From the NCBI GenBank assembly GCA_031292145.1, contig JARLHR010000042.1, forward strand, positions 1 through 64,000: a stretch of 64,000 nt of DNA, read 5' to 3'. Of the stretch, positions 1 to 41,831 are shown in pieces (position 1 is the stretch's first letter; each line of letters opens with the position of its first letter). The notes under the pieces are model-generated. The model ran no database searches. It had not been told where the DNA came from and saw nothing but the letters and a program-made list of their open reading frames with translations. Position numbers and translations under genes: made by a program. This DNA comes from Clostridium sp. GTDB lineage: Bacteria > Bacillota > Clostridia > Clostridiales > Clostridiaceae.

Positions 1-372
1 ATTTTAGTGTTATTTTTGTTTGTGAGAATTCAATTATAACAAGAAATTAGGGGGGCATTGTTTTTTTGTACAAAAAAACGTTCGAACCCTTGATATATAT
101 AGAAAATTTAAAAAGAAGTAGTGTAAATACTTTACACTAACTTGGTTTAAATCTGGGGCTTCTTATGAAGCTCCAATTTCATATGTGAGATTATAAAAGG
201 ATATGTAAATTCTGTAGAAATTGTATTATTTGGGGTGGTTTAAGTTTATTTGTAGAATTTATGGTATAATAAGGAATGAATGCTGTAGGGCTATTATGTC
301 TATAATCAGCAGTTCGAATTGTTATATTCAGTGCAATATAATTATGAAATATAGAAAAATTTCGGAGGAAAA
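1..372. other. Intergenic region with palindromes and a weak promoter
   Basis: No gene is visible. Three structures can be read. A 20-bp perfect palindrome lies at 60-79 (T7 then A7 around GTAC). A 21-bp inverted repeat lies at 119-139 with 9-bp arms TAGTGTAAA/TTTACACTA around TAC. A hairpin lies at 155-174 (GGGGCTTC/GAAGCTCC, loop TTAT) that is not followed by a T-run. A TATAAT box at 265-270 is the best -10 candidate for the nuclease-STAND gene; its -35 is poor. The inverted repeat could be an operator, but no regulator gene adjoins it. Confidence 0.5.
119..139. repeat. 21-bp inverted repeat (possible operator)
   Basis: Arms TAGTGTAAA and TTTACACTA are perfect complements around a 3-base centre. 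It sits about 235 bases upstream of the nuclease-STAND start. No T-run follows, so it is not a terminator. An operator role is inference only. Confidence 0.4.
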
Positions 373-3300
373 ATGAAGTTTAATGAGGAATTTATTAAAA
401 ATAATATAGTAATGCCATTTATAAGTAATATAGGCTTTAGTGAATATGAGTTAGAATTTGAAAACACTTTTAATATTCAATTAGGACGTGGTGTATATAA
501 TGTTAAAAGTGAGCAGGTGACTATAGCAAGTGGTAGACTCGATATATTGTGTAAAATAGATAACAAAAATTTATTTATTATTGAAATGAAGGCAGAGGAA
601 ATAGAGATATCTGATAAAGATAGAAGACAAGCTTTGTCTTATGCAAGATTAATCGAACCGATGGCAGCTTATGCAATAGTATCTAATGGGAGAAAAACTA
701 TTTTATATGATACAATAACGGGAAAAGAAGTGGATAAAGTTAATAGCAATGTATTTAATGGCGATTTTAGATTGGAATTAGATGAAGAAATATCAAGATT
801 AAGATTTGAAGGATTAAAGAATTTTATTGGATATTCACTTAATAATTTAGTTACTTTTTGTAAAATGAATAATGAAATAATTTTAGATATATTTTGTGCA
901 AAGGATTCAGATGAATTTAGCATAAAAACTGAATTTAAGTATATTCCAGAGTTATATGTTGAAAGGAAGGATATTGAAGATAAATTCATAGATTTTATAG
1001 AGCAAAGTAATAAGAAAGTATTTGCAGTTGTTGGAGAATCTGGAGCTGGCAAAACGAATATACTATGTCATCTTTCAAAGAAATACATAGATGAACCATT
1101 CTTATTTTTTTCAGGATCAATTATGGGAAAAGAATTTTTAGATGAAATACTAAATGATTTTAATATTATATTTTCTTCAGAAGAATCTAAAATAGGTCTT
1201 CTGAAAAAATTATCATCAATAGCGAATATTCATAACAAAGAAATTATTATAATTATTGATGCAATTGATGAATGGGGTGCAGAAGATAAAGTATATCAAC
1301 TAAATCAATTAGTCAAATATATAAATAATTTAAATATAAAGATTTGTATAAGTTGTAAAACATTAATGTGGGAAGAGTTTAAAATACAAAATGGAATCAA
1401 TACTTATGTAAAAGATAATGTATTTTTTGAAACTCCAATTTTAGAAGGATTTTCAGAAAAAGAATTTAATGAAGCTATTGATAAATATTGTAGCTTTTTC
1501 AAAACTAGTATTTCCGATAAATCAAATATAAGTAAGATTCAAAATCCATTCAATCTTAAGGTAGCTTGTGAAGTAGCTAGTATAGATAAACAACCATTAG
1601 ATAGTTGTATTGATTCTATAGAAACTATTAGAAAATATATATCACGCAAGTTAGATAAAATTAGTAATAAAAAATTAGCTAAAAGATATTTAAAAGGAAT
1701 AAGCGAGTATATGCTTAATGAAGATAACATATTAGTATCGGAAGATAGTATACGCAATTATTTAAAGTTAGGGATTAATGATGAAATACCAGAGGAACTC
1801 TTTGCATTCAATTTTTTATATAAGTATTTTGATGAAAGTGCAAATTTGAACATGGGATTTTACTTTTCAGGAGTTAGAGATTATTTAATATCAATTGAAA
1901 TTTTATCATTAAATATATTAAATAGTCAAAAGCGACAAGAAAAAATTATTTCTGTGATTTCAAATTATATTGGAGAAAATGCGATAATTTATTATTTTAA
2001 AACAGGAAATAATAAAGATAAAGAAGATTGCTTAAAAGCAATAATTCAATATGATGAAAAATATGAAAAAAATACATTGATTAAAATATTATTATTAAAA
2101 GAAATAACATTATATGATGATATTGAAGAGGGTTTAATGAAATCTATTCTAAATTACTTAAAATATAATTTTATTAAATTTAGAGAGAATAAAATTATTT
2201 CAACTAATATAGTGAATATAATGAAAAAATTTAATAATATAGAAAATGATTTAATAGAAATGATGTCTATATTATTGAAATATCCTAACAGTGAATTTCG
2301 AATAAGTGCCTATGATATAGCAGAATTATTACAACAATATAATAGTCAAAATGGAACTATTAAATTAACAGATATGGCTTTAAATAAAAATAATAATGAT
2401 TATATTAGACAGTTTATTGCATACAGTTTAGAAGATAGAAGGATAGATACTAAGAAAAAAACATTTATAAATTTAATAGTAGATGAGTATTCAGGTGTTC
2501 GTAACTTTGTAAGAGATTGGTATTATGAATTAGAAGATGTGTGTTTAAGAGATAAGCTTCTTGATATTAGTGATAATACAAGAAAAAAAGATGTAAATAT
2601 TGATATTTTTATGTGCTTAGCACGTTCAGAACTTTCAGATACAGGAGAAAAACTTTATTTTAAGCTTATAAATAAGAAATATGATGAAATGACTACGGCA
2701 TGGTTATGTAGAAGTATAGCTTTTCAAGGATACTCAAAAGCTATTCCAACATTCATTAAAATGTTTAGTGAAAATCCTAATGGTGATTTGGCAAATCACA
2801 TAGCCATATCTTTTAAAGAGCTTCAAGCAGAAGAAAGTGCACTAGTGTTATTGGATAAAATAAAAAAAGATTTAGATTTAGGTAAAGAGAGTATTTTTAT
2901 AGATATGGCTTTTGCAAGTCTTGCATCTGATGAACAGGTAGAAGAATTAGTTAGTTATCCTATAAAAAAAGTTACTAGTGAAAAACTATGTCACAGATTA
3001 AAAATATTAAGCAGATTTCAAAAACATAATTTTGAGAGTTTAATATTTGACATTGTTATGGATAATACTGTAAGCATTAAATTAAGAATTAATCTTTTAT
3101 CTGAATGGGCAACGAATGTGATTTATCATGACGTTAATATAATCAATAAAGATAAAATTTTGAAATATTTATATGAATTATTTAACGAAAATAGTGAAAT
3201 AGCAGTATTAGCTTTTAATGCATTAGTATCTTTAGAGGATGATATAAATAAACTTTATATGTATTTTATATCAGTATTACCTAAAATAAAGTATCTATTT

Positions 3301-3603
3301 AGATTTAATTGGGGGGCAACAGATTCAGAACATATATATTTATTTGGAAAGCATATTTTAAAATGGATAAACACAGAACTTATGAATGTTAGAGAACATA
3401 ATTTTGTTTACGTAATGAATTTGTTAAAGTTTTGTACTATAGTTGGAGATGAGAAGAGCATTGAAGCAATCTATAAAAATAAAGAAATTCTTATAGATAT
3501 AGCTAGTGAGAAGTATATTATGTATGTTGAATATTGTATTAGGGGAGATAATGATCATATATATGAGGATTATTATGATATTGAGGAACTATTATTAAAT
3601 TAA
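373..3603 (+). CDS. Nuclease-STAND-like NTPase with helical repeats, putative antiphage defence protein
   Basis: The 1076-residue protein has three parts. Residues about 30-130 look like a PD-(D/E)XK nuclease of the type I restriction HsdR N-terminal kind: D57, then E71-x-K73 (IEMK), then a helix with a Q-x3-Y pattern. Residues about 195-500 hold a P-loop NTPase: Walker A GESGAGKT at 221-228 and Walker B IIIIIDAIDEWG at 291-302, in the NACHT/STAND style. From about residue 560 to the end the chain is helical with HEAT-like repeats. Nuclease + STAND + repeat sensor is the plan of Avs-type antiviral proteins, where the repeats bind a phage protein and trigger the nuclease; that function is inferred. 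Start ATG has a GGAGG 5 bases upstream. It is monocistronic, with no methylase or partner beside it. Confidence 0.75.
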   Translation: MKFNEEFIKNNIVMPFISNIGFSEYELEFENTFNIQLGRGVYNVKSEQVTIASGRLDILCKIDNKNLFIIEMKAEEIEISDKDRRQALSYARLIEPMAAYAIVSNGRKTILYDTITGKEVDKVNSNVFNGDFRLELDEEISRLRFEGLKNFIGYSLNNLVTFCKMNNEIILDIFCAKDSDEFSIKTEFKYIPELYVERKDIEDKFIDFIEQSNKKVFAVVGESGAGKTNILCHLSKKYIDEPFLFFSGSIMGKEFLDEILNDFNIIFSSEESKIGLLKKLSSIANIHNKEIIIIIDAIDEWGAEDKVYQLNQLVKYINNLNIKICISCKTLMWEEFKIQNGINTYVKDNVFFETPILEGFSEKEFNEAIDKYCSFFKTSISDKSNISKIQNPFNLKVACEVASIDKQPLDSCIDSIETIRKYISRKLDKISNKKLAKRYLKGISEYMLNEDNILVSEDSIRNYLKLGINDEIPEELFAFNFLYKYFDESANLNMGFYFSGVRDYLISIEILSLNILNSQKRQEKIISVISNYIGENAIIYYFKTGNNKDKEDCLKAIIQYDEKYEKNTLIKILLLKEITLYDDIEEGLMKSILNYLKYNFIKFRENKIISTNIVNIMKKFNNIENDLIEMMSILLKYPNSEFRISAYDIAELLQQYNSQNGTIKLTDMALNKNNNDYIRQFIAYSLEDRRIDTKKKTFINLIVDEYSGVRNFVRDWYYELEDVCLRDKLLDISDNTRKKDVNIDIFMCLARSELSDTGEKLYFKLINKKYDEMTTAWLCRSIAFQGYSKAIPTFIKMFSENPNGDLANHIAISFKELQAEESALVLLDKIKKDLDLGKESIFIDMAFASLASDEQVEELVSYPIKKVTSEKLCHRLKILSRFQKHNFESLIFDIVMDNTVSIKLRINLLSEWATNVIYHDVNIINKDKILKYLYELFNENSEIAVLAFNALVSLEDDINKLYMYFISVLPKIKYLFRFNWGATDSEHIYLFGKHILKWINTELMNVREHNFVYVMNLLKFCTIVGDEKSIEAIYKNKEILIDIASEKYIMYVEYCIRGDNDHIYEDYYDIEELLLN

Positions 3604-5906: not shown

Positions 5907-6305
5907 ATGAAAACTGTTTATACTATTGGGGAATTGGTGAAACAATTAAATGTAAACAAAGAAACAATAAGATATTATGAAAGAATTGGATTGATTTCTG
6001 AAACTAAAAGAGATAGAAATGGATATAGGATATATACAAAAGAAGATATGGAAAAGATTAAATTTATACTTATTGTTAAAGAATTTGGATTCTCATTAAA
6101 GGAAATAAGCACATTAATACAGGATGAAATTTTATGTGGAGATATTGCAAGTATCAAAAAAATTGTTGAAAATAAAGTAAATGAAATTAATACTAAAATA
6201 AATAAATTGGATGCAACTAAAAAGTTGCTTGAAAAGGTAAAGAAAAATATATTGGATCAAAATATAAAGTGTTGTAATGACATAGAAAATTATCTAAAAA
6301 AATAG
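5907..6305 (+). CDS. MerR family transcriptional regulator (copy 1)
   Basis: The 132-residue MerR-type regulator has the winged HTH in residues 1-70 (YTIGELVKQLNV, ETIRYYERIGLI, NGYRIYT), then a dimerisation coiled coil at about 75-118 and a C-terminal pair of cysteines (C-C near residue 122) that could bind a metal or sense redox state. A paralogue with only scattered changes lies at 12167. It is followed after 125 bases by an EFR1 flavodoxin-ferredoxin gene whose promoter has the 20-bp spacer typical of MerR targets. The ligand is unknown. Confidence 0.88.
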   Translation: MKTVYTIGELVKQLNVNKETIRYYERIGLISETKRDRNGYRIYTKEDMEKIKFILIVKEFGFSLKEISTLIQDEILCGDIASIKKIVENKVNEINTKINKLDATKKLLEKVKKNILDQNIKCCNDIENYLKK

Positions 6306-6307
6306 TA

Positions 6308-6339
6308 TTGACTATGTAGTATAGTACATGAATTATAAT
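6308..6339 (+). promoter_or_regulatory. MerR-type promoter of EFR1 copy 1 (TTGACT-N20-TATAAT)
   Basis: TTGACT at 6308-6313 and TATAAT at 6334-6339 are 20 bases apart, longer than the usual 17. A dyad ATGTA...TACAT sits in the spacer (6314-6329). MerR activators untwist such over-long spacers. The same arrangement is conserved at 12568-12599. Regulation by the adjacent MerR is inferred. Confidence 0.7.
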
Positions 6340-6430
6340 TCCATTGAAGAGATTATATCTATTAACAAGGTAATTTTATACATAAAAATCAGTAAAATTA
6401 TTTGAAAGGATATAAAGAGGAGATGTTTTT

Positions 6431-7234
6431 ATGGTAATAGAAAATGATACAATATTGTATTTTTCAGGAACAGGTAACAGTTTGCAAGTTGCAAAGGATA
6501 TAAGTAATGAACTGGGAAAAGTTGAATTATGCAGTTTGACTTCTCTTGCAGATGAAAAAGAAATTAAAATAAAATCAAGAATACTTGGAATAGTTTTTCC
6601 GGTATATTATGCTCGCTTACCGCTAATAGTTGAGGAACTTGTTAGAAAATTAGAACTTAGCAAAGATACATATGTTTTTGCAGTAGCAACTTATGGTGGG
6701 GCAGCAGCTGATGTATTAATTAAGTTAAATAACATTTTACAAAATAGTGGGAGAATTCTTAATTCAGGATTTTTAATTCATATGCCAGCAAATAATATAT
6801 TTGCGTATAATCCAAGCCTGTGCAATGGAAAAAATAAGATTTTTAAGAAAGAAGAGAGAAAGGTCAAGGAATTATCAGATATAATTAAGAAAAGAAATGA
6901 TTATAAATGTGAACTGAGTAAATTAAAGATAGATATAGTAATCGATAGAATTCTTTTTAAAATTACAGATAATATAATGAAAAATCTTCATATAAGAGAT
7001 GAGAAGTTTTGGATTAATGATAAATGTACAAGTTGTAGATTATGTGAAAGGATTTGTCCAGTTAATAATATAGAATTTAATTCAGATAAACCAGTATGGA
7101 AGCATAAGTGCGAACAATGTACAGCTTGTATTCAATATTGCCCCAAAGAAGCTATTCAATGGGGAGATAAAACAATTAAAAGAAATAGGTATAGAAATCC
7201 TAATGTAAATGTAATTGAATTAGCAGGCCATTAA
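6431..7234 (+). CDS. EFR1 family flavodoxin-ferredoxin fusion (copy 1)
   Basis: The 267-residue cytoplasmic redox protein combines an N-terminal flavodoxin-like domain (FMN loop SGTGNS at residues 12-17; VFPVYYARLP) with a C-terminal bacterial ferredoxin domain. Its two 4Fe-4S motifs are C199-x2-C202-x2-C205-x3-C209 and C227-x2-C230-x2-C233-x3-C237. This is the EFR1 architecture common in anaerobes. Electron donor and acceptor are unknown. It is driven by a MerR-type promoter and is a near duplicate of 12693-13496. GGAGATG lies before the start. Confidence 0.85.
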   Translation: MVIENDTILYFSGTGNSLQVAKDISNELGKVELCSLTSLADEKEIKIKSRILGIVFPVYYARLPLIVEELVRKLELSKDTYVFAVATYGGAAADVLIKLNNILQNSGRILNSGFLIHMPANNIFAYNPSLCNGKNKIFKKEERKVKELSDIIKKRNDYKCELSKLKIDIVIDRILFKITDNIMKNLHIRDEKFWINDKCTSCRLCERICPVNNIEFNSDKPVWKHKCEQCTACIQYCPKEAIQWGDKTIKRNRYRNPNVNVIELAGH

Positions 7235-7323: not shown

Positions 7324-7455
7324 ATGGAGTTTTATAAGTTAACATTGAATGCAATGTATAAGCTATTAAATGATACAGGTGTTATGTTTTGGGCAAAGTG
7401 GATTTTAAAAGATATAGACGATTGGGATAATATAATAAAATCATACGTTGCCTGA
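7324..7455 (+). CDS. Small 43-residue protein, probably a truncated gene
   Basis: ATG 7324 is preceded by AAGGAG at 7308-7313 and opens a 43-residue frame ending just before a strong terminator. It contains a LLNDTGVMFWAKWILKDIDDW segment; I recall a family of small clostridial proteins with a D-T-G-x3-W-A-x-W-I-x3-D-I-x2-W signature that are roughly twice this length, so this looks like the N-terminal part only. No function can be given. Confidence 0.5.
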   Translation: MEFYKLTLNAMYKLLNDTGVMFWAKWILKDIDDWDNIIKSYVA

Positions 7456-7458
7456 ATA

Positions 7459-7502
7459 AAAAAAGAGACGATCTTATAAATTTTAGATTGTCTCTTTTTT
7501 TG
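7459..7502. terminator. Bidirectional intrinsic terminator
   Basis: A long stem built on AAAAAGAGACGATCT and AGATTGTCTCTTTTT serves the 43-residue gene on the plus strand and the convergent LysR gene on the minus strand. A-rich and T-rich tracts flank both sides. Confidence 0.85.
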
Positions 7503-7524
7503 TCATGTTGGTAAGAGAATACCT

Positions 7525-8412
7525 TTAAGTTTCCTTTCTTTGTAATACAAGATTTTTTAGAGCTGCCAATGGTGTAGACATCCATTTTTCTCGATGGTAT
7601 ATCATTCTAGCATTTATAAATATTCCATCAATTTTTACGGGTAGTATTACAAGTTCGCCTCTTTGAATTTCCTTATCAACTGCTATACTTGGTAGTAAAG
7701 TAATACCAAGCCCATTTTTAACGCACTGCTTTATTGCTTCTAGACTACTGAACTCCATAATAGTGTTTACTTTTATATTTTGATTTTGTAGGATTTTTTT
7801 TAACTCAAAGCTATAACCAATCTCTGCTTCGGTAATAATAAATGATTGGTTTTCAAGCTCATATGCAGTAATTTCTTTTAAAGCAGCCAACGGATGATCT
7901 GGTGCTGCAACAAAAATAGCAGAATCTTGGAAAAGATCTATTTGAGAAAGATGTTGTTGTCCAGATTCATCATGAAAACCAAATGCAACGTCAATAATAT
8001 TTTTTTCTAGCATTTCAGGAAAATCGGGGCAGTCTGCCATTTTAAGTATTATTTGAACATCGGGATAAATTTTACTATATTCTTTAAGTAGTGGTGGTAG
8101 CCAAAATACGCATAGAGTTTCTGCAGCTCCTATTTTCAGCGAACCTTTAACTTTTTCATCATTATCAAATAGTTTACGAATCTCTTCAGCGTCTTTAATC
8201 ATTCTTTCAGCTGAAGAAATTAGTTTTTTCCCTTGCTCGTTTAAGAATACCTTTCGCCCAAGTCGTTCAAAGAGTTTAACATCAAGTTCTTGCTCAAGAT
8301 TACGTATATGATCAGATACAGTAGATTGGGAATAATTAAGTTCCTCAGCAGCTGCTCTAAAATTTAATAATCTTGCAACAACAATAAATGTTTGAAGTTG
8401 TTTAATGTCCAA
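7525..8412 (-). CDS. LysR family transcriptional regulator
   Basis: This is a 295-residue LysR-type regulator. The winged HTH is at residues 1-60 (MDIKQLQTFIVVARLLNF, then YSQSTVSDHIRNLEQELDVKLFERLGR), and the periplasmic-binding-like effector domain at about 90-290. The start is TTG 8412, which gives the canonical MDIKQL beginning; GGATGTG lies just upstream. It is divergent from a permease gene with a 10-bp inverted dyad between them, so it most likely controls that permease and itself. The effector is unknown. Confidence 0.88.
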   Translation of the reverse strand: MDIKQLQTFIVVARLLNFRAAAEELNYSQSTVSDHIRNLEQELDVKLFERLGRKVFLNEQGKKLISSAERMIKDAEEIRKLFDNDEKVKGSLKIGAAETLCVFWLPPLLKEYSKIYPDVQIILKMADCPDFPEMLEKNIIDVAFGFHDESGQQHLSQIDLFQDSAIFVAAPDHPLAALKEITAYELENQSFIITEAEIGYSFELKKILQNQNIKVNTIMEFSSLEAIKQCVKNGLGITLLPSIAVDKEIQRGELVILPVKIDGIFINARMIYHREKWMSTPLAALKNLVLQRKET

Positions 8413-8432
8413 TAAATCACATCCGATCGTAA

Positions 8433-8464
8433 AAGTCGATTAAATTAATTAAAATAATCGACTT
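8433..8464. promoter_or_regulatory. Interrupted dyad in the LysR-permease divergent region
   Basis: AAGTCGATTA (8433-8442) and TAATCGACTT (8455-8464) are perfect 10-bp arms separated by 12 AT-only bases, about 20 bases from the LysR start. This position suits an autoregulatory LysR recognition site that also serves the permease. Confidence 0.65.
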
Positions 8465-8533
8465 ATCAATATGTTTCTTTTATGATACACTAACAAAAAA
8501 TATATTTCAAATGAATTCTTTGGAGGTTAAAGT

Positions 8534-9796
8534 ATGAAACAACAAATTGAATTAAGAAAAAGTATTACTTGGGTTAAAGGTTCTGCTCTTACTATAGGAG
8601 CAGTATTAGGTTCTGGAATTCTTGCATTGCCAGCAATTGCTGCGGAAATGGCAGGACCAGCATCCATACTAAGCTGGATTCTTATGAGTTTATTTACTGC
8701 TCCCATGGTAATAGCTATTGGTATGATGTCTTCTCAATTTCCTAACTCAGGTGGAATGGCAGCATATGCACGGCAGGCCTTTGGTCCATTTTGGGGGCGT
8801 CTTACTGGATGTCTTATACTAAGTGCAATGCCTTTGGGAATGCCTATAACTTCGCTCATCGGTGCTCAATATCTTGGTAGTGCTTTTTCATGGTCTTCTT
8901 CTTCAATTCATTTAGCAGCTGCACTGCTTCTTATAGTTGCAGTAATCTTAAATTACATGGGTGTTGAATTATCAGGTCGAGTGCAGGTAGTTGTGATTTC
9001 TATAATATTAATAATATTAATTTTTACTGTTGGAACATCCATACCACAGACTAGACTCTCAGCCTTTTATCCATTTGCCAGCAATGGTTGGATTCCAGTA
9101 GGCCAAGCTATGAATCTTTTGTTCTTTGCATTCATGGGCTGGGAAATGATTGGTCACTTGTCAGAAGAATTCTATAATCCTCATAAAGATATACCATTAA
9201 GCCTTTGTGTTGGTTTTTTGTTGATTAATTTATTATATTTTTCAGTAGCTTTTGTTACTATAGGCAGCAGTATATATAAAAAAGGCAATCCTACAACAGC
9301 TATGATTGATCTGATTGCTTATAGATGGGGTACGAATGCAGGCATAATAATAGCTTTTTTAGGATTTATCATTTGCTATTGCACTGCACATACTTATATT
9401 GCAGGATTTTCTCGACTTGTTTATGCTGAGGCTAAAGAAGGAAATTTTCCAGCTTCATTTGGCAAACTTCATTTTCGATATCAGTCACCTTATGTGGCAT
9501 TGTTTTCTTTTATTCCATTATTTGTAATTATGATATTTATTAGTTGGAGATTTTCATGGGAATTAAAAGCACTTGTTAGTATTCCAAGTACTACATTTCT
9601 TATGGTTTATATTATCAGTATGGTGGCTGCGGCAAAAGTTTTATGTAATAAAATTGGGAAGATTTCTGCTTATATAAGTGCTTTTTTATCTTCTATAGTT
9701 TTTTTGTTCGCTGGATGGTTTGTCATATATCCATTAATGGTAATAGCTATAGGATTTTACTTTAAAAAAGGAAAGATGAAATATGTATGTGATTAG
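8534..9796 (+). CDS. APC family amino acid permease
   Basis: The 420-residue integral membrane protein has about 12 hydrophobic segments. The first carries the APC superfamily signature GAVLGSGILALPAIAAE; segment 2 is followed by SSQFPNSGGMAAYARQAFG. Length and N-terminus resemble the YjeH-like amino acid exporters and neutral amino acid permeases; direction and substrate cannot be read. GGAGG lies 9 bases before ATG. It is divergent from the LysR gene, its probable regulator. Confidence 0.85.
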   Translation: MKQQIELRKSITWVKGSALTIGAVLGSGILALPAIAAEMAGPASILSWILMSLFTAPMVIAIGMMSSQFPNSGGMAAYARQAFGPFWGRLTGCLILSAMPLGMPITSLIGAQYLGSAFSWSSSSIHLAAALLLIVAVILNYMGVELSGRVQVVVISIILIILIFTVGTSIPQTRLSAFYPFASNGWIPVGQAMNLLFFAFMGWEMIGHLSEEFYNPHKDIPLSLCVGFLLINLLYFSVAFVTIGSSIYKKGNPTTAMIDLIAYRWGTNAGIIIAFLGFIICYCTAHTYIAGFSRLVYAEAKEGNFPASFGKLHFRYQSPYVALFSFIPLFVIMIFISWRFSWELKALVSIPSTTFLMVYIISMVAAAKVLCNKIGKISAYISAFLSSIVFLFAGWFVIYPLMVIAIGFYFKKGKMKYVCD

Positions 9797-10102
9797 AAAT
9801 AATTTTGGTTGATACAACAAATGGTTGAGATATTGAAAGAATAGATAATGTATACTTTGTTATTGCAGCAGCTAAAGGTATTAATAATGATACTGTATTT
9901 TAATTTTTAAATTAACCATATTATAAATGAAATACAACTTCCCATTATTCATACAATGAGAAGTTGGTGTGACTAGAGAAAAGTACTTAATAAATTAGGT
10001 ATTACTGATAAATTTATTTTAATTTAAGTATTTTAGAGAAGGAAGGAGATTCCTCCATGATAGGAACTCCTTCTTTTTATATGTGTTTACTATAAAAATT
10101 AT
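9797..10102 (+). other. Intergenic region with a gene remnant and two hairpins
   Basis: Codons from about 9807 read as VDTTNG, a stop, then DIERIDNVYFVIAAAKGINN and a stop at 9901. This looks like the tail of a decayed gene that I cannot identify. A hairpin at 9935-9966 (CAACTTC/GAAGTTG with inner CATT/AATG) has no T-run. The real terminator is at 10043-10078. Confidence 0.4.
10043..10078. terminator. Bidirectional terminator between permease and flavoprotein genes
   Basis: AAGGAG-A-TTCCT and AGGAA-CTCCTT pair with one bulged A around CCATGAT, followed by TCTTTTT on the plus strand. It lies between convergent genes. Confidence 0.8.
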
Positions 10103-10684
10103 TTATGTTTGTAGATTTATTCCAAGTGTTTTCGCCTGTTCTTGAATTTCAGAAGGAATTTTATTTTTGGAAGCAGCTCCATCTAAAGTTATACTTCCAA
10201 GAATATTATATCCGCCAGCTTTAAGAACTATTTCGATGGCTTGTAGAGCACCCTTGCTTTGAGTTGGAAGTTGACTGATTGGAAAGGGGGCATTACATGC
10301 TGTAACCATAATAGCCTTTTTTCCTTTGTGCAGAGGAATTGGCATTTCTAAGCCACTAGCTGCGATTTCTTCAAAGGCAGTGAGGTTTCTATCAATAAGA
10401 ATTTTTAATGATCCAGAAATATTTCCAAAATAAGTAGGACTACCAATAACTATGGCATCAGCAGAACGAATTTTATTCCATACATTATGTCCATCATCTT
10501 TAGGGAGAATGCAGTTTTTATTAGGCCTACACTGTAAACAACTTAGACAGGGCTTTATACTCAAATCATATGAGTTTATCCACTCAACGGTATGCTTTGA
10601 ATCAATTTCCTTTTCAATACATTTCATTACACCAACAGTATATCCATTTTTTCTAGGTGATCCATTTAAAAAGAGTATTTTCAT
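10103..10684 (-). CDS. Iron-sulfur flavoprotein / NADPH-dependent FMN reductase family
   Basis: The 193-residue flavodoxin-fold protein begins MKILFLNGSPRKNGYT with the phosphate-binding loop, and carries GSPTYFGN near residue 80. Between them is C46-x2-C49-x2-C52-x5-C58. This compact cysteine motif is characteristic of iron-sulfur flavoproteins (Isf) that carry a 4Fe-4S cluster and FMN, so it is probably an Isf-type electron carrier rather than a plain FMN reductase. It is divergent from an MmyB-type regulator gene with a palindrome between them. Confidence 0.82.
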   Translation of the reverse strand: MKILFLNGSPRKNGYTVGVMKCIEKEIDSKHTVEWINSYDLSIKPCLSCLQCRPNKNCILPKDDGHNVWNKIRSADAIVIGSPTYFGNISGSLKILIDRNLTAFEEIAASGLEMPIPLHKGKKAIMVTACNAPFPISQLPTQSKGALQAIEIVLKAGGYNILGSITLDGAASKNKIPSEIQEQAKTLGINLQT

Positions 10685-10771
10685 ACATAAATTTCCTCCG
10701 TTTCTATATTATAAAAAGTTAGGATATGTTATAAATATTATATAAAGTTTTATGATATTAATAGGAGTTTA

Positions 10772-10794
10772 TTTATACTGGTATAAATTATAAT
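10772..10794 (+). promoter_or_regulatory. Palindrome and -10 box upstream of the MmyB-type regulator
   Basis: TTTATAC-TG-GTATAAA (10772-10787) is a perfect palindrome that abuts TATAAT at 10789-10794, about 24 bases before the regulator's ATG. It lies in the divergent region and is a good candidate operator for the regulator and the flavoprotein gene. Confidence 0.55.
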
Positions 10795-10817
10795 AGGATA
10801 GAAATGGAATTTTAAAT

Positions 10818-11654
10818 ATGGAGAAACAGCGATATAAAGAGCTAGGAGATTTTTTAAAAACCAGAAGAGCCAAAATTTCACCATCTCAAGTAGGAATTTC
10901 AGAAGGTTTGAGACGTCGTACACCAGGTCTTAGACGGGAAGAGGTTGCGAATATAGCAGGGATAGGATTAACTTGGTACACTTGGCTTGAACAAGGACGT
11001 CCTATACAAGTATCAGCAGAGGTACTAGAAAGTCTTTCCAGGGTACTAATGCTTAATGGACAAGAACGAATTCATCTATACACTTTGGCAAGACAAGTGC
11101 TTCCAGCAGAGATTCCTTCATACCAAGAAAATGTTAGTCCAATACTGCAACATGCGCTAGATAATTTAATATTAAGTCCGTCTTTTATTATGGATACAAG
11201 GTGGAATATTATTGCATGGAATAAAGCAGCAAGCGCTGTGTTTATTGATTTTAATAAAATACATGTAAGTGAGAGAAATATGATTTCCATGATGTTTACC
11301 TATGATGAGTATAAAAAATTATTTATAGACTGGGAATCTCATGCAAAAGGAATGCTGGCACGATTTCGCTCAACTTCTGGAGAATACATTGAAGATCCTT
11401 GGCTTGTTAAATTTATTGAAGATCTTAAGAGAAAAAGTGAGGAATTCAATTTATGGTGGTCTCAACATGATGTGCAGAGGAATGGTGAAACTTATAAGAA
11501 GCTCAAGCATCCAATTGTAGGTGAATTGTTTTTTGAATTTATTAGTTTTGATGTTTCAGATGGTTCTAACTTGAGATTGATTGTGAATACTCCTTTTTCG
11601 AAATCAGATACTGATATAAAAGTAAAATCATTGCTAGATAAACGAGGTATATAG
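10818..11654 (+). CDS. XRE-type regulator with MmyB ligand-binding domain
   Basis: The 278-residue protein follows the MmyB family plan. Residues 1-90 are an HTH with the typical RRRTPGLRREEVANIAGIGLTWYTWLEQGR-type sequence; residues about 110-270 are the PAS-like MmyB ligand domain (PSFIMDTRWNIIAWNKAA; GELFFEFISFDV; LIVNTPFS near the end). In actinomycetes such regulators often sit beside reductase genes, and here the divergent neighbour is an iron-sulfur flavoprotein, a probable target. No strong ribosome site lies before ATG 10818 (TATAGAAATGGAATTT). Confidence 0.85.
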   Translation: MEKQRYKELGDFLKTRRAKISPSQVGISEGLRRRTPGLRREEVANIAGIGLTWYTWLEQGRPIQVSAEVLESLSRVLMLNGQERIHLYTLARQVLPAEIPSYQENVSPILQHALDNLILSPSFIMDTRWNIIAWNKAASAVFIDFNKIHVSERNMISMMFTYDEYKKLFIDWESHAKGMLARFRSTSGEYIEDPWLVKFIEDLKRKSEEFNLWWSQHDVQRNGETYKKLKHPIVGELFFEFISFDVSDGSNLRLIVNTPFSKSDTDIKVKSLLDKRGI

Positions 11655-11735
11655 GTTTAATATGTTACATATTAAGTGTTTAAAAAAATGCAACTTCATA
11701 TTCATATAATATGATGATTTGAAAGGAAAAAATTT

Positions 11736-12146
11736 ATGAGCGAAGTAATTATAGAAAAAGAATTTGATTCTGAGTTTAGTAATGTAAAATATATGACTGA
11801 TGATAATATAGTTCTTCTTACATGGAAAAAATTCTGCTGCTATGATGACTATAGAAATCCAACAACATTTGCTTTGGAATTGCTTAAGAAATATCCTAAT
11901 AGCAATTTTGTTGTAGATGCAAGAAATGGATTTGAAGATGAAAAGGATGATGTTGAATGGGGATTTTCAGTATTATTACCAGCTATGTCAAGTGCAGATT
12001 GTAAGAATGTTGTATTTATTATGAATGAAGTAAATGAAATAGAAGAAGAGATGGACATGTGGACAAAAGAATTTATGAAATATTTTACGGTCAAAAAAGT
12101 TACAAGCTATGAAGAGGCTGTTAATCAAATTACAATGTTAAAATGA
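11736..12146 (+). CDS. Conserved hypothetical protein, 136 residues, first gene of MerR-EFR1 module
   Basis: I do not recognise a named family with certainty. The acidic protein alternates predicted strands and helices (IVLLTWKKF, FALELLKKYPNSNFVVDARNGF, CKNVVFIMNEV, MKYFTVKKVTSYEEAVNQI) in a way that resembles the STAS/SpoIIAA-like alpha/beta fold. A deleted copy lies at 5788. It is 20 bases upstream of a MerR gene and probably cotranscribed. GAAAGGAAAAA before ATG is the ribosome site. Confidence 0.65.
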   Translation: MSEVIIEKEFDSEFSNVKYMTDDNIVLLTWKKFCCYDDYRNPTTFALELLKKYPNSNFVVDARNGFEDEKDDVEWGFSVLLPAMSSADCKNVVFIMNEVNEIEEEMDMWTKEFMKYFTVKKVTSYEEAVNQITMLK

Positions 12147-12166
12147 AACAGATTGGAAATATGTAG

Positions 12167-12565
12167 ATGAAAGATATTTATAGCATCGGAGAATTGGTGA
12201 AACAATTAAATATAAACAAAGAAACTATAAGATATTATGAAAGAATTGGATTGATTTCTGAAACTACAAGAGATAAAAATGGGTATAGGATATATACAAA
12301 AGAAGATATAGAAAAGATTAAATTTATACTTATTGTTAAAAATTTTGGATTTTCATTAAAGGAAATAAGCACGTTAATACATGATGAAATTATATGCGGA
12401 GATATTAAAAGTATCAAAAAAATTGTTGAAGATAAAGTAAATGAAATTAATAATAAAATAAATCAATTGGATGCAACAAAAAGGTTACTTGAAAAGGTAA
12501 AGAAAAATATATTGGATGAGAATATAAAGTGTTGTGATGACATAGAAAATTATTTAAAAAAATAG
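12167..12565 (+). CDS. MerR family transcriptional regulator (copy 2)
   Basis: This 132-residue paralogue of the regulator at 5907 is nearly identical through the HTH (ETIRYYERIGLISET) and differs mainly in the recognition-distal and coiled-coil residues. It keeps the C-terminal cysteine pair. It is 20 bases after the intact 136-residue gene and 127 bases before EFR1 copy 2. Because both HTHs and both EFR1 promoters are so alike, the two regulators may cross-regulate. Confidence 0.88.
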   Translation: MKDIYSIGELVKQLNINKETIRYYERIGLISETTRDKNGYRIYTKEDIEKIKFILIVKNFGFSLKEISTLIHDEIICGDIKSIKKIVEDKVNEINNKINQLDATKRLLEKVKKNILDENIKCCDDIENYLKK

Positions 12566-12567
12566 TA

Positions 12568-12599
12568 TTGACTGTGTAGTATAGTACATGAATTAAAAT
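12568..12599 (+). promoter_or_regulatory. MerR-type promoter of EFR1 copy 2 (TTGACT-N20-TAAAAT)
   Basis: TTGACT at 12568-12573 and TAAAAT at 12594-12599 keep the 20-base spacer and the core GTAGTATAGTACAT of the first copy. Two substitutions are visible: ATG to GTG at the dyad edge and T to A in the -10, so the strength may differ. Confidence 0.68.
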
Positions 12600-12692
12600 T
12601 CCATTAAAGACATTATATCTATTTAAAAGGTAATTTTATAAATAGAAGTCAGTAAAATTACTTAAGGGTGTATATAAAAAGGAGATGTTTTT

Positions 12693-13496
12693 ATGGTAAT
12701 AAAAAATGACACAATATTATATTTTTCAGGAACAGGTAACAGTTTTCAAGTTGCAAAGGATATAAGTAATGAACTAGAAAAAGTTGAATTATGTAGACTA
12801 ACTTCACTTGCAGGTCAAGAAGAAATCAAAGTAAAATCAAGGATACTTGGAATAGTTTTTCCCGTATATTATGCCCGATTACCGTTAATAGTGGAAGAGC
12901 TTGTTAGAAAATTAGAGCTTAGCAAAGATACATATGTTTTTGCAGTAGCGACTTATGGTGGGGCAGCTGCTGAGGTATTAGTTAAGCTGAATAGCATATT
13001 ACAAAATGGTGGCAGAAATCTTAATTCAGGGTTTTTACTTCATATGCCAGCAAATAATATATTTGCTTATAATCCAAGCTCCGGGAAGAAGAAAAATAAG
13101 ATTTTTAAGAGAGAAAAAAGAAAGGTTAAGGAAATATCAGATATAATTAAAGAAAGAAAAGATTATAAATGTGAACTCAGTAAGTTAATGATAGATATAG
13201 TAATCGATAGAATTCTAGTTAAAGTTACAGATAAGATAATGGAAAATTTTCATATAAGAGATGAGAAGTTTTGGATTAATGCTAAATGTAATAGTTGCAG
13301 ATTATGTGAAAGGATTTGTCCAGTTAATAATATAGAATTTAATTCAAATAAACCAGTATGGAAGCATAAGTGTGAACAATGTACAGCTTGTATTCAATAT
13401 TGCCCCAAAGAAGCTATCCAGTGGGGAAATAAAACAATCAAAAGAAACAGGTATAGAAATCCTAATGTAAATATAATTGAATTGGCAGGGGATTAG
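12693..13496 (+). CDS. EFR1 family flavodoxin-ferredoxin fusion (copy 2)
   Basis: The 267-residue paralogue of 6431-7234 has the same layout: FMN loop SGTGNS, and two 4Fe-4S motifs (CNSCRLCERICP and CEQCTACIQYCP). All eight cluster cysteines are kept. Substitutions concentrate in the middle linker (about residues 135-180). The upstream promoter, ribosome site and 3' end are also duplicated. It is likely a redox partner protein under MerR control; its reaction is unknown. Confidence 0.85.
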   Translation: MVIKNDTILYFSGTGNSFQVAKDISNELEKVELCRLTSLAGQEEIKVKSRILGIVFPVYYARLPLIVEELVRKLELSKDTYVFAVATYGGAAAEVLVKLNSILQNGGRNLNSGFLLHMPANNIFAYNPSSGKKKNKIFKREKRKVKEISDIIKERKDYKCELSKLMIDIVIDRILVKVTDKIMENFHIRDEKFWINAKCNSCRLCERICPVNNIEFNSNKPVWKHKCEQCTACIQYCPKEAIQWGNKTIKRNRYRNPNVNIIELAGD

Positions 13497-13522
13497 TAGT
13501 AGTTTAAGATAAAGACAGTGAA

Positions 13523-13557
13523 TTTCTAATTATTCATATATCCATTAGGCTAATAAT
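13523..13557. repeat. 35-bp repeat, copy B
   Basis: It matches copy A at 4853-4887 with about two differences. It lies 27 bases after EFR1 copy 2 and may mark one end of the duplicated or inserted segment. Confidence 0.6.
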
Positions 13558-13717
13558 ACAAAGCTGATATTTTAGGATGATAAATAAAACTTATTTTTTG
13601 AGAATTAAACAGTATGTTATTTATAAAATATGCAATCATTAGCTTGAAAATAAATGGTAATTTGTTGTAGTGATGAATATACATTTTGAAAAATTGGTAA
13701 ATCGTGAGGGGGAAAAT

Positions 13718-14779
13718 ATGAGAAAATATTATATTGATAATATTAGAATTTTATGTATATTAATGCTGTTTCCGTTTCATACAGCTATGATATTTAATGG
13801 ATTTGGTGAAAACTGGTATGTGCATAGTAAAGATTTATTTGGAGCAACTATGCTGATTATTGGAGTATATCCATGGTGGATGTCAGTACTCTTTGCACTT
13901 GCTGGAATGTCTACAATGTATGCATTGAAGAAAAGAACAACAAAGCAATATATAGAGGAACGTTTTTTCAAATTGTTTGTTCCATTAACATCAGCAATTC
14001 TATTATTGATACCTGTTCAAACATATATAGCAGATAAGTATTTTAATAATTATATAGGAAGTTATATAGAACATTTATCAGTCTATTTTTCATTAACAGA
14101 TTTGAGTGGTTATGATGGGCATTTCACACCTGGACAAACTTGGTTTATATTATATCTTTTTGCAATATCAATAATTACTTTGCCTCTCATCATATGGTAT
14201 AAAAATAAAAAGAACAAAATTAATGGAAACTCTATGGCTATAATGAGAATTCTGCCAATGTTTTTGATAGTTCTTATAGCTGTCCCAATATTGAATGTAG
14301 GGGGCAAAAGCGTTGGAGAATATACAGCTGATTTTTTACTAGGATTTTTTATTTTAAGTATGGAAGAAGTGCAAGAAAGATTACAGCAGCATCGTTTTCC
14401 TTTGGGGATTGCATGGGTGGTACTCATTATAATGCGATGTACTATGTATCAAATGGGTATCTCACATGGCTTCCTATGGGATATACAGCAGCAATTTTTA
14501 AGTTGGATTGGAATTCTGGCAATTATCGGACTAGGTAGAAGAGTTTTGGAGTTTAATAATAGGTTTACACAATATTTTACAGCATCAGTATTTCCTATAT
14601 ATATCTTTCATCAATCTATTATTGTAATTGTAGGCTTTTTAATAGTACGTACTGTAAGAGAACCAGTGATGCAGTATTTTATAATTATGGGAACGTCATT
14701 TGTATTAACGATTATGATGTATGAGATATTCAGAAGATTAGGAGTTACAAGATTTCTGTTTGGAATTAAGAAAATATAA
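13718..14779 (+). CDS. Acyltransferase family 3 membrane protein
   Basis: The protein of about 353 residues has roughly ten membrane segments. Its N-terminal YYIDNIRILCILMLFPFHT motif is typical of the acyltransferase-3 family (OafA/WecH/OpgC-like), which moves acyl groups from the cytoplasm onto exported glycans or lipids; the family histidine (FPFH) is present. I choose ATG 13718, with GAGGGGG at 13706-13712 just upstream, over ATG 13670, which has no ribosome site. The 3' end runs into a truncated carboxypeptidase frame. Confidence 0.8.
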   Translation: MRKYYIDNIRILCILMLFPFHTAMIFNGFGENWYVHSKDLFGATMLIIGVYPWWMSVLFALAGMSTMYALKKRTTKQYIEERFFKLFVPLTSAILLLIPVQTYIADKYFNNYIGSYIEHLSVYFSLTDLSGYDGHFTPGQTWFILYLFAISIITLPLIIWYKNKKNKINGNSMAIMRILPMFLIVLIAVPILNVGGKSVGEYTADFLLGFFILSMEEVQERLQQHRFPLGIAWVVLIIMRCTMYQMGISHGFLWDIQQQFLSWIGILAIIGLGRRVLEFNNRFTQYFTASVFPIYIFHQSIIVIVGFLIVRTVREPVMQYFIIMGTSFVLTIMMYEIFRRLGVTRFLFGIKKI

Positions 14780-21256: not shown

Positions 21257-22965
21257 CTAACCTAATTTAATAATGCAATCCTTCCTATAAAAAGAAATTC
21301 CATATTTTATTATATTCTCATAACCTTCCTGTCTAAGCTCCTCGTCATATTTGTTAGTTTCTATTTGCTCTAAGGCTTCATCGCACATTTTATAAATTTC
21401 TTTTGGTTCTTTGCATATCTTAAGCTCCATTATTACTGCTGGGTCAAATATTGATGGAGATTTTATATAAATATCACTTCGACCATTTCCAGATTCTCTG
21501 TTAGATTTTAGTATATGATCATGCATATTTGCGAGTACTCCAACCACAAAACCATGATAGAAATTTTCATAGGCATCATTAAAGCTTATGGTTTCTCTTA
21601 AGAGCTTATTAAGTTCTTTTTGAAAAGTTGCACTATCTTTATTAAGGATTGAATTATATAAAACACTTAAATCCTTAGCTTTTATCTTTTCCTCAAACCA
21701 CTTTAGAATTTTAGTTCTAAAAATGTATTTAACTTCTCGATTTGGTATACTTAATTCTAAATACCTATTATCTTCACTATCCATTCTTTCATTTACTTTT
21801 TTAAAATATCCAGTAAAAAACATGAAATTCCATAAATTATCCATTGTATCGTAAATTTCATCATAAGTTATATCTTCATGAACGGGCTTTTCTATAGTTT
21901 TTCCTTCAATTAATAGTTCAATTTCTTTTTTAGTTGCCGTATCTGATTTTTCTATGAGACTTCTTACTATACTGTTTGAACTTGTATTTGCCCAATAAGA
22001 AGTTGGAAATGTATTGAAGTCTGTTACTAAATCTTCACAAATCTTACTACGCTCCATGGATTATACACTTCAGTATTTCCAAAAGTATATCCATTGTACC
22101 AATTTTTAATTAGTTCTTCTTTTTCTACTAACTCATAATCATTAGGTAGTACCTTTAAATTGTCTTGTGTAAACCCAAAGTATTCTGAGTAGGATTTACT
22201 CAATATTGAGATTATTTCTAGATTATTTAAGCCTGTAAATATACTTTCACGTGAAATACGCAAGCATCCTGTAATTACTGCAAATTCTAAAGAAGAATTA
22301 GTTTTTAATGCTGATTCAAAAAGAGATCTTATAAAAGCGATCATTCTATCATAAAATCCTTCAAAGAAAGCATTTTCAAGTGGAACATCGTATTCATCAA
22401 TAAGTATTATTACCTTCTTATTATGATGCTTTTCTAAACATTCACATAGGAAATATAAGGAATCAGTATAATCTCCTTCTTCACCCTGTTCCTTTAAAAT
22501 TTTTAAATATCTTTCTTTTTTATGTTTCAATTCTTCATTTTCTAATATATATTCATGTCTTTCAAATTCTTCTGCTATCCTTCTTCTAATAGAAATATAA
22601 GCTAATTCAAAATTGGGTTGCTTAGCTGATTTTAAAGATAAATTAATCACAGGATATTGTCCCATATGTGATATATACTTTTGTCCAGCTTTCATTATAT
22701 TTAAGTTTTCAAAAATGTATGAATTATCCTTGCTGCTGTTCTCAAAAAAGTATTGAAGCATACTCATGTTTAATGTCTTCCCAAACCTTCGCGGTCTTGT
22801 AATTAAATTAACAGCTCCCTTATTGTCTAATAAATCTTTTATAAGCAAGGTCTTATCGACGAAATAATATCCTCTAGTTATTAGCATTTCAAAATTATCT
22901 ATACCTATTGGCAGTGGTTTAAATTTAATTTCATCACTTCCATTTCCTTTTCGTTTCTTTCTCAT
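21257..22965 (-). pseudogene. AAA-ATPase / PD-(D/E)XK nuclease protein, split by a frameshift
   Basis: Two overlapping frames on the minus strand are halves of one family protein. The upstream half (22965-22027, 312 aa) is an AAA-ATPase-like domain: start LPIGIDNFEMLITRGYYFVDKTLLI, P-loop RPRRFGKTLNMSML, VIILIDEYDVP. The downstream half (22057-21257, 266 aa) is the linker plus PD-(D/E)XK nuclease domain (AVIMELKI; IIKYGISFYRKDC). Near 22032 the first frame reads NPWSVVRFVKI-stop and the second DLVTDFNTFPTSYW. Adding one G restores NPWSVV..FVKDLVTDF. An intact member would have about 560 residues. Members of this family are often multicopy and of unknown role. Confidence 0.8.
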
Positions 22966-40812: not shown

Positions 40813-41445
40813 CTATCTCACATTGTCATTATTACAAGTATATTGAAATTCAGGTTGTGTCTGAATATAAAATCCATTTCTTACTTGAGATATCCAATTT
40901 TGAAAAATTTCTAACCAAGCATTACTTGTAAAGAACTTTTCTAATGACTCATCAGGGTTCCATTCTAAAATCAAAAATGGTCCAATTCCAAAGGACCAAA
41001 TTCCGCTCTGTTCTACTCCCGTTTCCCTTATAAGCAGAATAGGAAGTCCATATTGATAAGCCATAGCTGGCTCGATTTGGGCAAAAGGGCTACCTTCCCA
41101 AGTTAATATATTCTGAGGCTCACCAAGGTTGTTTTGGATTACTCTTACTTGTCGCTGATTAAGATTAAGAGCCATAAATCCGTAGCTGGATAACATCATT
41201 CTTCGTATATTTGTTAGTGGGGTCTCGGGATATTGTTCCGTAACAGGTAAAGTACGTGGAAATAATAAAGCCGTTCTTATTTTCCTAATTATAACATCAA
41301 CAAATTCTTGTTGAATAGAATTGAGTCTACTTGGATGACTTAAAAATACTGGAACTCGAAATAAGAGTTTCGATGATTCTTGCATTAATTGAGTTGGTTT
41401 TGCAGCTTCATATTTTTTAGCTTCTTCGTTTGATGCCATAGTCAT
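40813..41445 (-). CDS. TIR/nucleoside deoxyribosyltransferase-like protein
   Basis: I cannot name this 210-residue protein with certainty. The core reads VPVFLSHPSRLNSIQQEFVDVIIRK, then TPLTNIRRMMLSSYGFMALN, then SPFAQIEPAMAYQYGLPILLIRETG. That order (strand with S-H-P, helix, xxxI..M..S.G strand, then a conserved Glu, E125, before an A-x-x-x-G-L-P strand) is how TIR-like and nucleoside 2-deoxyribosyltransferase-like folds are built, with the Glu as the nucleophile. An NAD- or nucleotide-cleaving role is inference. GGAGG 7 bases before ATG 41445 fixes the start. It is single and convergent to the spore gene. Confidence 0.5.
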   Translation of the reverse strand: MTMASNEEAKKYEAAKPTQLMQESSKLLFRVPVFLSHPSRLNSIQQEFVDVIIRKIRTALLFPRTLPVTEQYPETPLTNIRRMMLSSYGFMALNLNQRQVRVIQNNLGEPQNILTWEGSPFAQIEPAMAYQYGLPILLIRETGVEQSGIWSFGIGPFLILEWNPDESLEKFFTSNAWLEIFQNWISQVRNGFYIQTQPEFQYTCNNDNVR

Positions 41446-41831
41446 TTGTTTTCCTCCATAAATATATATATTATTTTTAGAAGTGCATACTTTTATATTC
41501 CCGCTATACATCATTATATGTTGGAAAAATTGATAATGTTACGTTGATGTGTTATGCAACATAGTATTTTATTCATCCTAATCGCTGCGATAATCTGAGA
41601 ATCATTGCTGACAATAAAAATAATACATGAACTAGAAAGTAGTGCCACAAAACAATACAGTAGTAATTTTCATAATTCTATAGAACAAATATGTATCAGA
41701 TTTCAGCTATTCCATATTGACAGAAAAAATTAATAAGAATATAATATATTTCGAAAGCGAAATATTCGGTGGTGAAATATTCCGATACGAAATGTTCGAA
41801 AGAGAAATAAATGTTTAGGTGGTGATTATAT
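41446..41831. other. Divergent intergenic region, MarR-ABC promoter
   Basis: The region holds the consensus promoter and palindrome at 41717-41765. Leftward it serves the TIR-like gene, whose own promoter is not clear. No ORF is supported. Confidence 0.5.
41717..41765 (+). promoter_or_regulatory. Consensus promoter and palindromic operator of the marR-ABC operon
   Basis: TTGACA (41717-41722), 17-base spacer and TATAAT (41740-41745) are perfect consensus. ATATTTCG-AAAG-CGAAATAT (41746-41765) is a perfect palindrome covering the start site. Further CGAAAT/GAAATATTC half-sites repeat at 41774-41808. A dimeric MarR bound here would block initiation. Confidence 0.82.

Follow-up and report, generated by a model that had tools for sequence, protein, structure and literature searches.

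What kind of protein is encoded at the start of this stretch of Clostridium sp. DNA, and what might it do for the cell? The window, by which we mean the whole 64,000-nucleotide stretch analyzed, carries an open reading frame (ORF) at 373 to 3603 on the forward strand that an earlier note, made from the letters alone, had taken for a candidate single-gene defense system. We consider it probable that the product works by itself as an NLR-like antiphage sensor whose effector is an HsdR-type DNase; it is related to Avs2 but is not filed here as an Avs2 member. This view of the protein as a probable one-protein virus alarm, one that would destroy DNA once triggered, follows from the union of a nuclease, an NLR-like switch, and a helical tail and from the place of several of its rare relatives among phage defense genes. 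A role in defense against phage or mobile elements is very likely, and we hold almost as firmly that the nuclease is the effector; with somewhat less confidence, we expect the outcome to be abortive.

Nuclease, switch, and tail of the window protein

The ORF starts with ATG, stays open across 1076 codons, and is preceded by GGAGG at 364 to 368, four bases 5' of that ATG. Its parts were assigned as follows.

373..3603, + strand: HsdR-N nuclease-STAND-helical tail protein; intact ORF, 1076 amino acids
373..717, + strand: HsdR-type PD-(D/E)XK nuclease, residues 1-115; HSDR_N_2, invariant residues, and model; D57, E71-x-K73, Q86-x3-Y90
718..939, + strand: helical linker, residues 116-189; invariant columns E146, L148, N158, and C163; model helices 137-150 and 156-174
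940..1932, + strand: STAND/NACHT NTPase, residues 190-520; profile match to Avs2 9o4e, structural alignment, motifs, and conserved columns
1933..3600, + strand: all-helical C-terminal region, presumed sensor, residues 521-1076; tail BLAST, PDB search, and low-confidence model

The Pfam family HSDR_N_2 matched residues 6 to 116 of the window protein with 26.5 bits against a cut-off of 25; it also matched all 13 aligned family rows (E 0.01), and HSDR_N matched 8 of them. Residues E30, D57, E71, K73, Q86, Y90, N105, and G106 were invariant in 13/13 rows, the window's included. A QxxxY motif is a mark of HsdR and RecB-like nucleases, and the HSDR_N profile, together with the D, ExK, and QxxxY residues, identified the domain as the HsdR-N subtype of PD-(D/E)XK. 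In residues 5 to 113 of the model, a helix is followed by five strands, the last two of which carry D57 and E71, and then by a helix and two further strands, a topology that fits the PD-(D/E)XK core plus additional strands. Folding of the nuclease by itself without an alignment gave a predicted local distance difference test (pLDDT) score of 34.5, and that model was not used. The closest solved relative by profile was the N terminus of RM.BsaXI (1.5e-4), and it is perhaps through such a BsaXI-like N terminus that a PADLOC type II methylase model matched 11 of the 13 rows (best, 4.3e-8).

The NTPase region carries a Walker A motif at 221-228, a Walker B motif of the form DxxDE at 296-300, ISCK at 326-329, and conserved F496, Y497, and D503. 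G221, K227, and T228 were invariant in 13/13 rows, again with the window's included, and D296 and E300 were invariant in 12/12, with a shortened plasmid copy excluded. On its own, the window protein reached no Pfam NTPase family at cut-off (NPHP3_N was best, at 23.7 versus 24.8, and NACHT scored 14.9 versus 26.7), and it matched one chain among PDB sequences, at E 0.037. The family profile matched solved Avs2 (9o4e) at 3.4e-13, and the model of the window protein aligned structurally with NLRP3, NLRC4, NOD2, Avs4, and Avs3, NLR NACHT modules among them; that a given family is missing from the alignment table carries no evidential weight. A NACHT module with a winged helix and a helical domain, as in bacterial NACHT/NLR-related proteins, was found. 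On this point the earlier interpretation needs correction: the NTPase is not without a link to Avs, Avs2 being the nearest among what was searched.

The motifs D57, E71-x-K73, GESGAGKT (221-228), and DAIDEW (296-301) all lay where the earlier note had placed them, and its anatomy of nuclease, STAND module, and tail was borne out by the HSDR_N_2 profile, the Avs2 profile match, and the NACHT structural alignment. The nuclease and NTPase motifs exceed chance, since HSDR_N_2 passes its cut-off and the residues are invariant across the family rows. The "helical repeats" held up in part: residues from about 500 to 1076 are predicted to be all-helical, but repeats did not emerge (HEAT_2 reached E 0.094).

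Relatives of the gene and their neighborhoods

The family is rare and spans phyla, with a conserved nuclease-NTPase core and tails that fall into unrelated groups. The window's own genome holds a paralogue, P0002 (810 amino acids; contig C114), that is 32% identical over residues 1 to 445 and divergent beyond; the assembly is rated 4.63% contaminated and 95.85% complete, and C114 is likely from the same organism as the window. No other copy was found in 39 relatives, 390 other genomes of the class, or 67 other genomes of the genus (the last by the P0002 search and by the family profile over the whole core), the gene being carried by 1/391 class genomes and 1/68 genus genomes, with the own genome as that one. 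Profile matches at E 0.001 occurred in 15 of the 68 genus genomes and in 38 of 398 phylum genomes (three candidates scored in each), and both times the whole core was present only in the own genome (G000). Two sampled families gave 2/249 and 1/249 genomes at E 1e-20, the center genome counted in each. The phage records and viral contigs searched held no family member, and a phage-borne origin was set aside on that ground.

A three-sequence core scan of GTDB-representative contigs added ten members, from a Nitrospirales, a Gillisia, four Flavobacterium, two Cloacimonadota, a Pedobacter, and an Acinetobacter source, and G695 (771 amino acids, distant) and G986 (834 amino acids) were added later. 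G695 was kept as a distant member with matched positions 26 to 235; other partial matches, mostly confined to the NTPase, were dropped, as were 13 of the 14 matching records of the plasmid search, which hit only within residues 33 to 119. On the Massilia plasmid NZ_CP103373.1 (L003), a shortened homologue lies beside an annotated integrase; in this copy (L003:7968-9328), similarity is lost inside the NTPase and the product ends at 345 amino acids, so it looks truncated. The Nitrospirales copy (L006:3567-6495) likewise ends early, with the next, overlapping ORF reading as a continuation of the tail, and looks broken. In a tree of 15 rows, including the window's, the Pedobacter, G986, Acinetobacter, and Massilia members grouped together (support, 83/87), and G695 sat on a long branch. 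The four Flavobacterium copies, with cores 73 to 95% identical to that of L008, lay in four different contexts. The case that would have refuted the earlier note, housekeeping homologues at fixed chromosomal sites, was rejected on these differing contexts of close copies and on the rarity of the gene in its class and genus.

Among the 13 members compared by BLAST (Massilia and G986 left out), the cores (residues 1 to 520) matched one another and the tails formed separate groups, one of Gillisia, Flavobacterium, Cloacimonadota, and Nitrospirales and one of Pedobacter and Acinetobacter, with the window protein (P0001), P0002, and G695 each matchless at 1e-3. The P0001 tail thus matched none of the 12 other tails, and it had no solved relative in the PDB, its one match standing at E 2.4. 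Differing tails on a persisting core are the pattern that would be expected of a sensor, and the tail is probably the sensor.

Neighbors of the 14 other members were scored with PADLOC, none being scanned for L006, L012, and L052. Named defense systems lay near 6 of the 14 (Gabija, a type IIG enzyme, and four Dnd/Ssp clusters), and thus defense systems beside homologues, as foreseen earlier, were seen for several of them. The neighborhoods were as follows.

L008: Gabija GajA (1.9e-107) and GajB (2.2e-49); a PifA-like ATPase gene ends 94 bases upstream
L013: type IIG enzyme (2.1e-127), ending 105 bases upstream
L014: DndC, DndD/PbeC, and DndH
L015: DndB, C, D, E, and H
L086 (G986), 8346-14699: DndC, DndD/PbeC, DndE, and PbeA; the family gene begins 3 bp past the end of dndE, in the same orientation
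L054: BrxP/SspD-like, SspB, SspC, SspA/DndA, PbeA, and PbeC
L009: candidate PADLOC family PDC-S54, the next gene upstream
L003: candidate PADLOC family PDC-S26, about 5 kb off
L011: gene for a DNA cytosine methylase at a distance of 6.6 kb; PADLOC matched neither of two further genes

Phosphorothioate (Dnd/Ssp) modification genes were linked to 4 of the 14 other members: Dnd loci hold three of the four in the Pedobacter, G986, Acinetobacter, and Massilia group, and the distant G695 lies in an Ssp locus.

Surroundings of the window gene

One further feature lies upstream of the gene.

1..141, no strand assigned: end of a repeated, transposase-linked, insertion sequence (IS)-like element, inside which the contig ends; repeat copies elsewhere

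Bases 1 to 141 recurred with 99 to 100% identity at two more sites of the own genome and, as similar copies, elsewhere in the genus, and the 31 of 68 genus genomes that matched the first 372 bases did so mostly within this repeat. An ORF named by reading as transposase-like lies beside the repeat in L091 and L092, and from the repeat and this ORF we conclude that the window gene abuts an IS-like element. A ribosomal RNA flank was rejected as an identity for the repeat: Rfam at gathering scores was empty in the first 8 kb of the window and in L091 and L092, where the transposase-like ORF was found instead. The isolated position that the earlier note gave the gene, at an accessory region's edge, is therefore partly an effect of assembly, this edge being the contig end inside the repeated element. 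One terminator-like site precedes the gene at 154-175, and a promoter scan gave no signal (24 matches versus a shuffle mean of 36.1).

On the right flank, a LysR-transporter pair at 7453-9900 has a counterpart of 92% identity in the sister genome G442. There, a full-length Avs4 (2274 bits; L067:2958-7802) ends about 6 kb to the left of the pair with different intervening genes, so that a common site for STAND defense genes may exist. Elsewhere in the window, a MerR regulator and flavodoxin/ferredoxin gene pair occurs twice (5907-7234 and 12167-13496; about 90% DNA identity), two overlapping minus-strand ORFs at 21257-22965 read as halves of one AAA-ATPase-like/PD-(D/E)XK gene that is possibly broken, and a 233-amino-acid ORF at 40813-41514 is a candidate nucleotide-binding or TIR-like protein by its text. 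On contig C252 of the own genome (L053:7153-12640), a 1434-amino-acid, trypsin-fused, Avs2-type STAND gene is overlapped at its start by an MBL-fold gene with PADLOC matches to LmuA (8.6e-83) and Avs1a (9.9e-74). Together the two combine a nuclease and a protease with an Avs2-type switch, and a SngB/BrxD-like gene lies about 4 kb beyond them.

Known systems, rival explanations, and meaning

Membership in the canonical Avs types was set aside, the window protein having no PADLOC or NCBIfam Avs match up to E 1. A likeness to Avs2 lies in the order of effector, NTPase, and tail, and Avs2 has the nearest STAND module among solved structures; one PADLOC Avs2 model matched 8/13 family rows and NCBIfam matched 4/13, the window protein itself being without a match. 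The family differs from Avs2 in that its N-terminal nuclease is HsdR-N, and the family nuclease profile gave no match up to E 10, with filters off, against L019 (996 residues fetched; PADLOC Avs2 match over 10-994), the sole nuclease-bearing Avs2 protein compared. EruA (NCBIfam NF058535), a NACHT-domain antiphage protein, matched 3/13 rows (best, 4.9e-5) and the window protein only at E 0.15 (10.1 bits versus a cut-off of 1000); a literature search found no paper on an EruA antiphage protein, and the EruA papers found concern other subjects. The nuclease subtype is shared with HsdR and BsaXI-like enzymes, but no helicase motor or methylase domain was found in the window protein, which has a STAND module instead.

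PMC12931631 describes Avs1-4 as having nuclease effectors and sensing DNA packaging machinery. In its described architecture, the window protein also resembles bNACHT25 and bNACHT32 of bacterial NACHT clade 6, for which PMC12169576 reports an N-terminal PD-(D/E)XK DNase, a central NACHT, a C-terminal sensing part, infection-induced DNA degradation that requires the nuclease site, and a D48A allele that loses defense and DNA degradation; the window protein differs in falling under the Pfam NACHT cut-off. The earlier claim that an HsdR-N effector is unlike those of the named Avs types stands in part: PD-(D/E)XK or other nuclease effectors are known for antiphage STAND proteins from these two papers, and only the HsdR-N subtype seems unusual. 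No HsdR-N-STAND fusion was described in the accessible portion of the open-licence literature, and one may be listed in other Avs or bNACHT papers or their supplements.

The roles of sensor, switch, and nuclease are assigned here by way of Avs1-4 and bNACHT25/32. The C-terminal helical region (about residues 521-1076) would recognize some sign of infection, with a phage protein as the likeliest candidate; by Avs and NLR precedent, recognition would free the STAND NTPase for ATP binding and oligomerization, which would bring the HsdR-type PD-(D/E)XK domains together to cut DNA, host DNA included, and the infected cell would halt before phage release. What the sequences show beneath this proposal are intact, strictly conserved nuclease and NTPase motifs, a NACHT-like architecture, unrelated tails on a shared core, a rare and scattered distribution, and named defense systems near 6/14 other members. 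Several points weigh against this reading. The gene stands at the end of contig C199 with 372 bases upstream, so that its left context is lost, and no known defense system was recognized beside it in ORF lists read by eye. PADLOC was negative for the tested neighbors of L007 (one gene) and L010 (two genes), and the tally of 6/14 members with named systems, plus two with PADLOC candidates, is a raw count, uncorrected for background. The NTPase profile gave the distant G695 14.5 bits, below the scores of Avs2 proteins, and the modeled tail is mostly below a pLDDT of 50 from about residue 600 onward, its helices being of low confidence.

The alternative that survives best, though we consider it unlikely, is a modification-dependent or modification-blocked restriction enzyme whose nuclease reads marked or unmarked DNA directly, with the NTPase as an ATP-driven switch and without a phage-protein sensor. 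An HsdR-type nuclease suits such an enzyme, as do the four members in phosphorothioate loci (one of them 3 bp behind dndE), the member that follows a type IIG modification-restriction gene by 105 bases, and the cytosine methylase gene 6.6 kb from another. However, no methylase was read beside the window gene, no modification gene was recognized beside the remaining members in neighborhoods scanned in part, and the NTPase aligns with NACHT proteins and not with a helicase translocase; the SF2 (superfamily 2) translocase of type I subunit R was not found, ResIII scoring 16.5 versus 22.5 bits and the P-loop domain aligning with NACHT. A search of the window genome at E 0.001, aimed at DndC and not at Ssp genes, also gave no match, and a Dnd-linked function for the window copy was set aside on the absence of DndC. 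Slightly less likely still is a mobile-element defense gene directed against rival elements or plasmids and not phage, for which one can cite the P0002 contig with its Xre regulators, primase, RadC-like ORF, and large serine recombinase, the integrase-like genes near L008, L011, and L015 (all by reading), the annotated integrase near L003, and the transposase-linked repeat at the window edge; against it, the functional precedents, Avs and bNACHT, respond to phage proteins (PMC12931631 and PMC12169576), and the lack of a relative in phage records or viral contigs is not decisive. A STAND regulator of MalT-like signaling, with an N-terminal domain that binds DNA and has no nuclease activity, is highly improbable given that D57, E71, K73, Q86, and Y90 are invariant in 13/13 rows.

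For the probable antiphage sensor, the phosphorothioate loci suggest a wider and more tentative picture. Dnd loci hold diverse nucleases that have been proposed as restriction parts or back-up suicide effectors (Rakesh et al. 2024, PMC10853773); the text available names HKD, HNH, NERD and other restriction endonuclease, URI, HEPN, and PIN domains, and an HsdR-N-STAND fusion was not found in it, "HsdR" occurring 0 times in its main text. It is conceivable, if doubtful, that we are dealing with a cross-phylum NLR-like family unnamed by the defense models searched, in which the HsdR nuclease serves as an interchangeable warhead for a STAND switch related to that of Avs2. One branch would then be wired into phosphorothioate loci, in one case directly behind dndC-D-E, as a reserve suicide effector for infections in which a phage defeats modification-restriction.

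If the proposed function is true, the HsdR-N restriction nuclease would join the effectors fired by STAND immune switches. Modular exchange is visible within one assembly, where two HsdR-N-STAND proteins differ in their tails and a trypsin-STAND protein carries a related NTPase. For annotation, the analysis describes a protein to which none of the models searched in PADLOC 2.0.0 and NCBIfam gives a name, and the members in Dnd/Ssp loci suggest that modification-based restriction may be tied to NLR-like sensing, a connection open to experiment.
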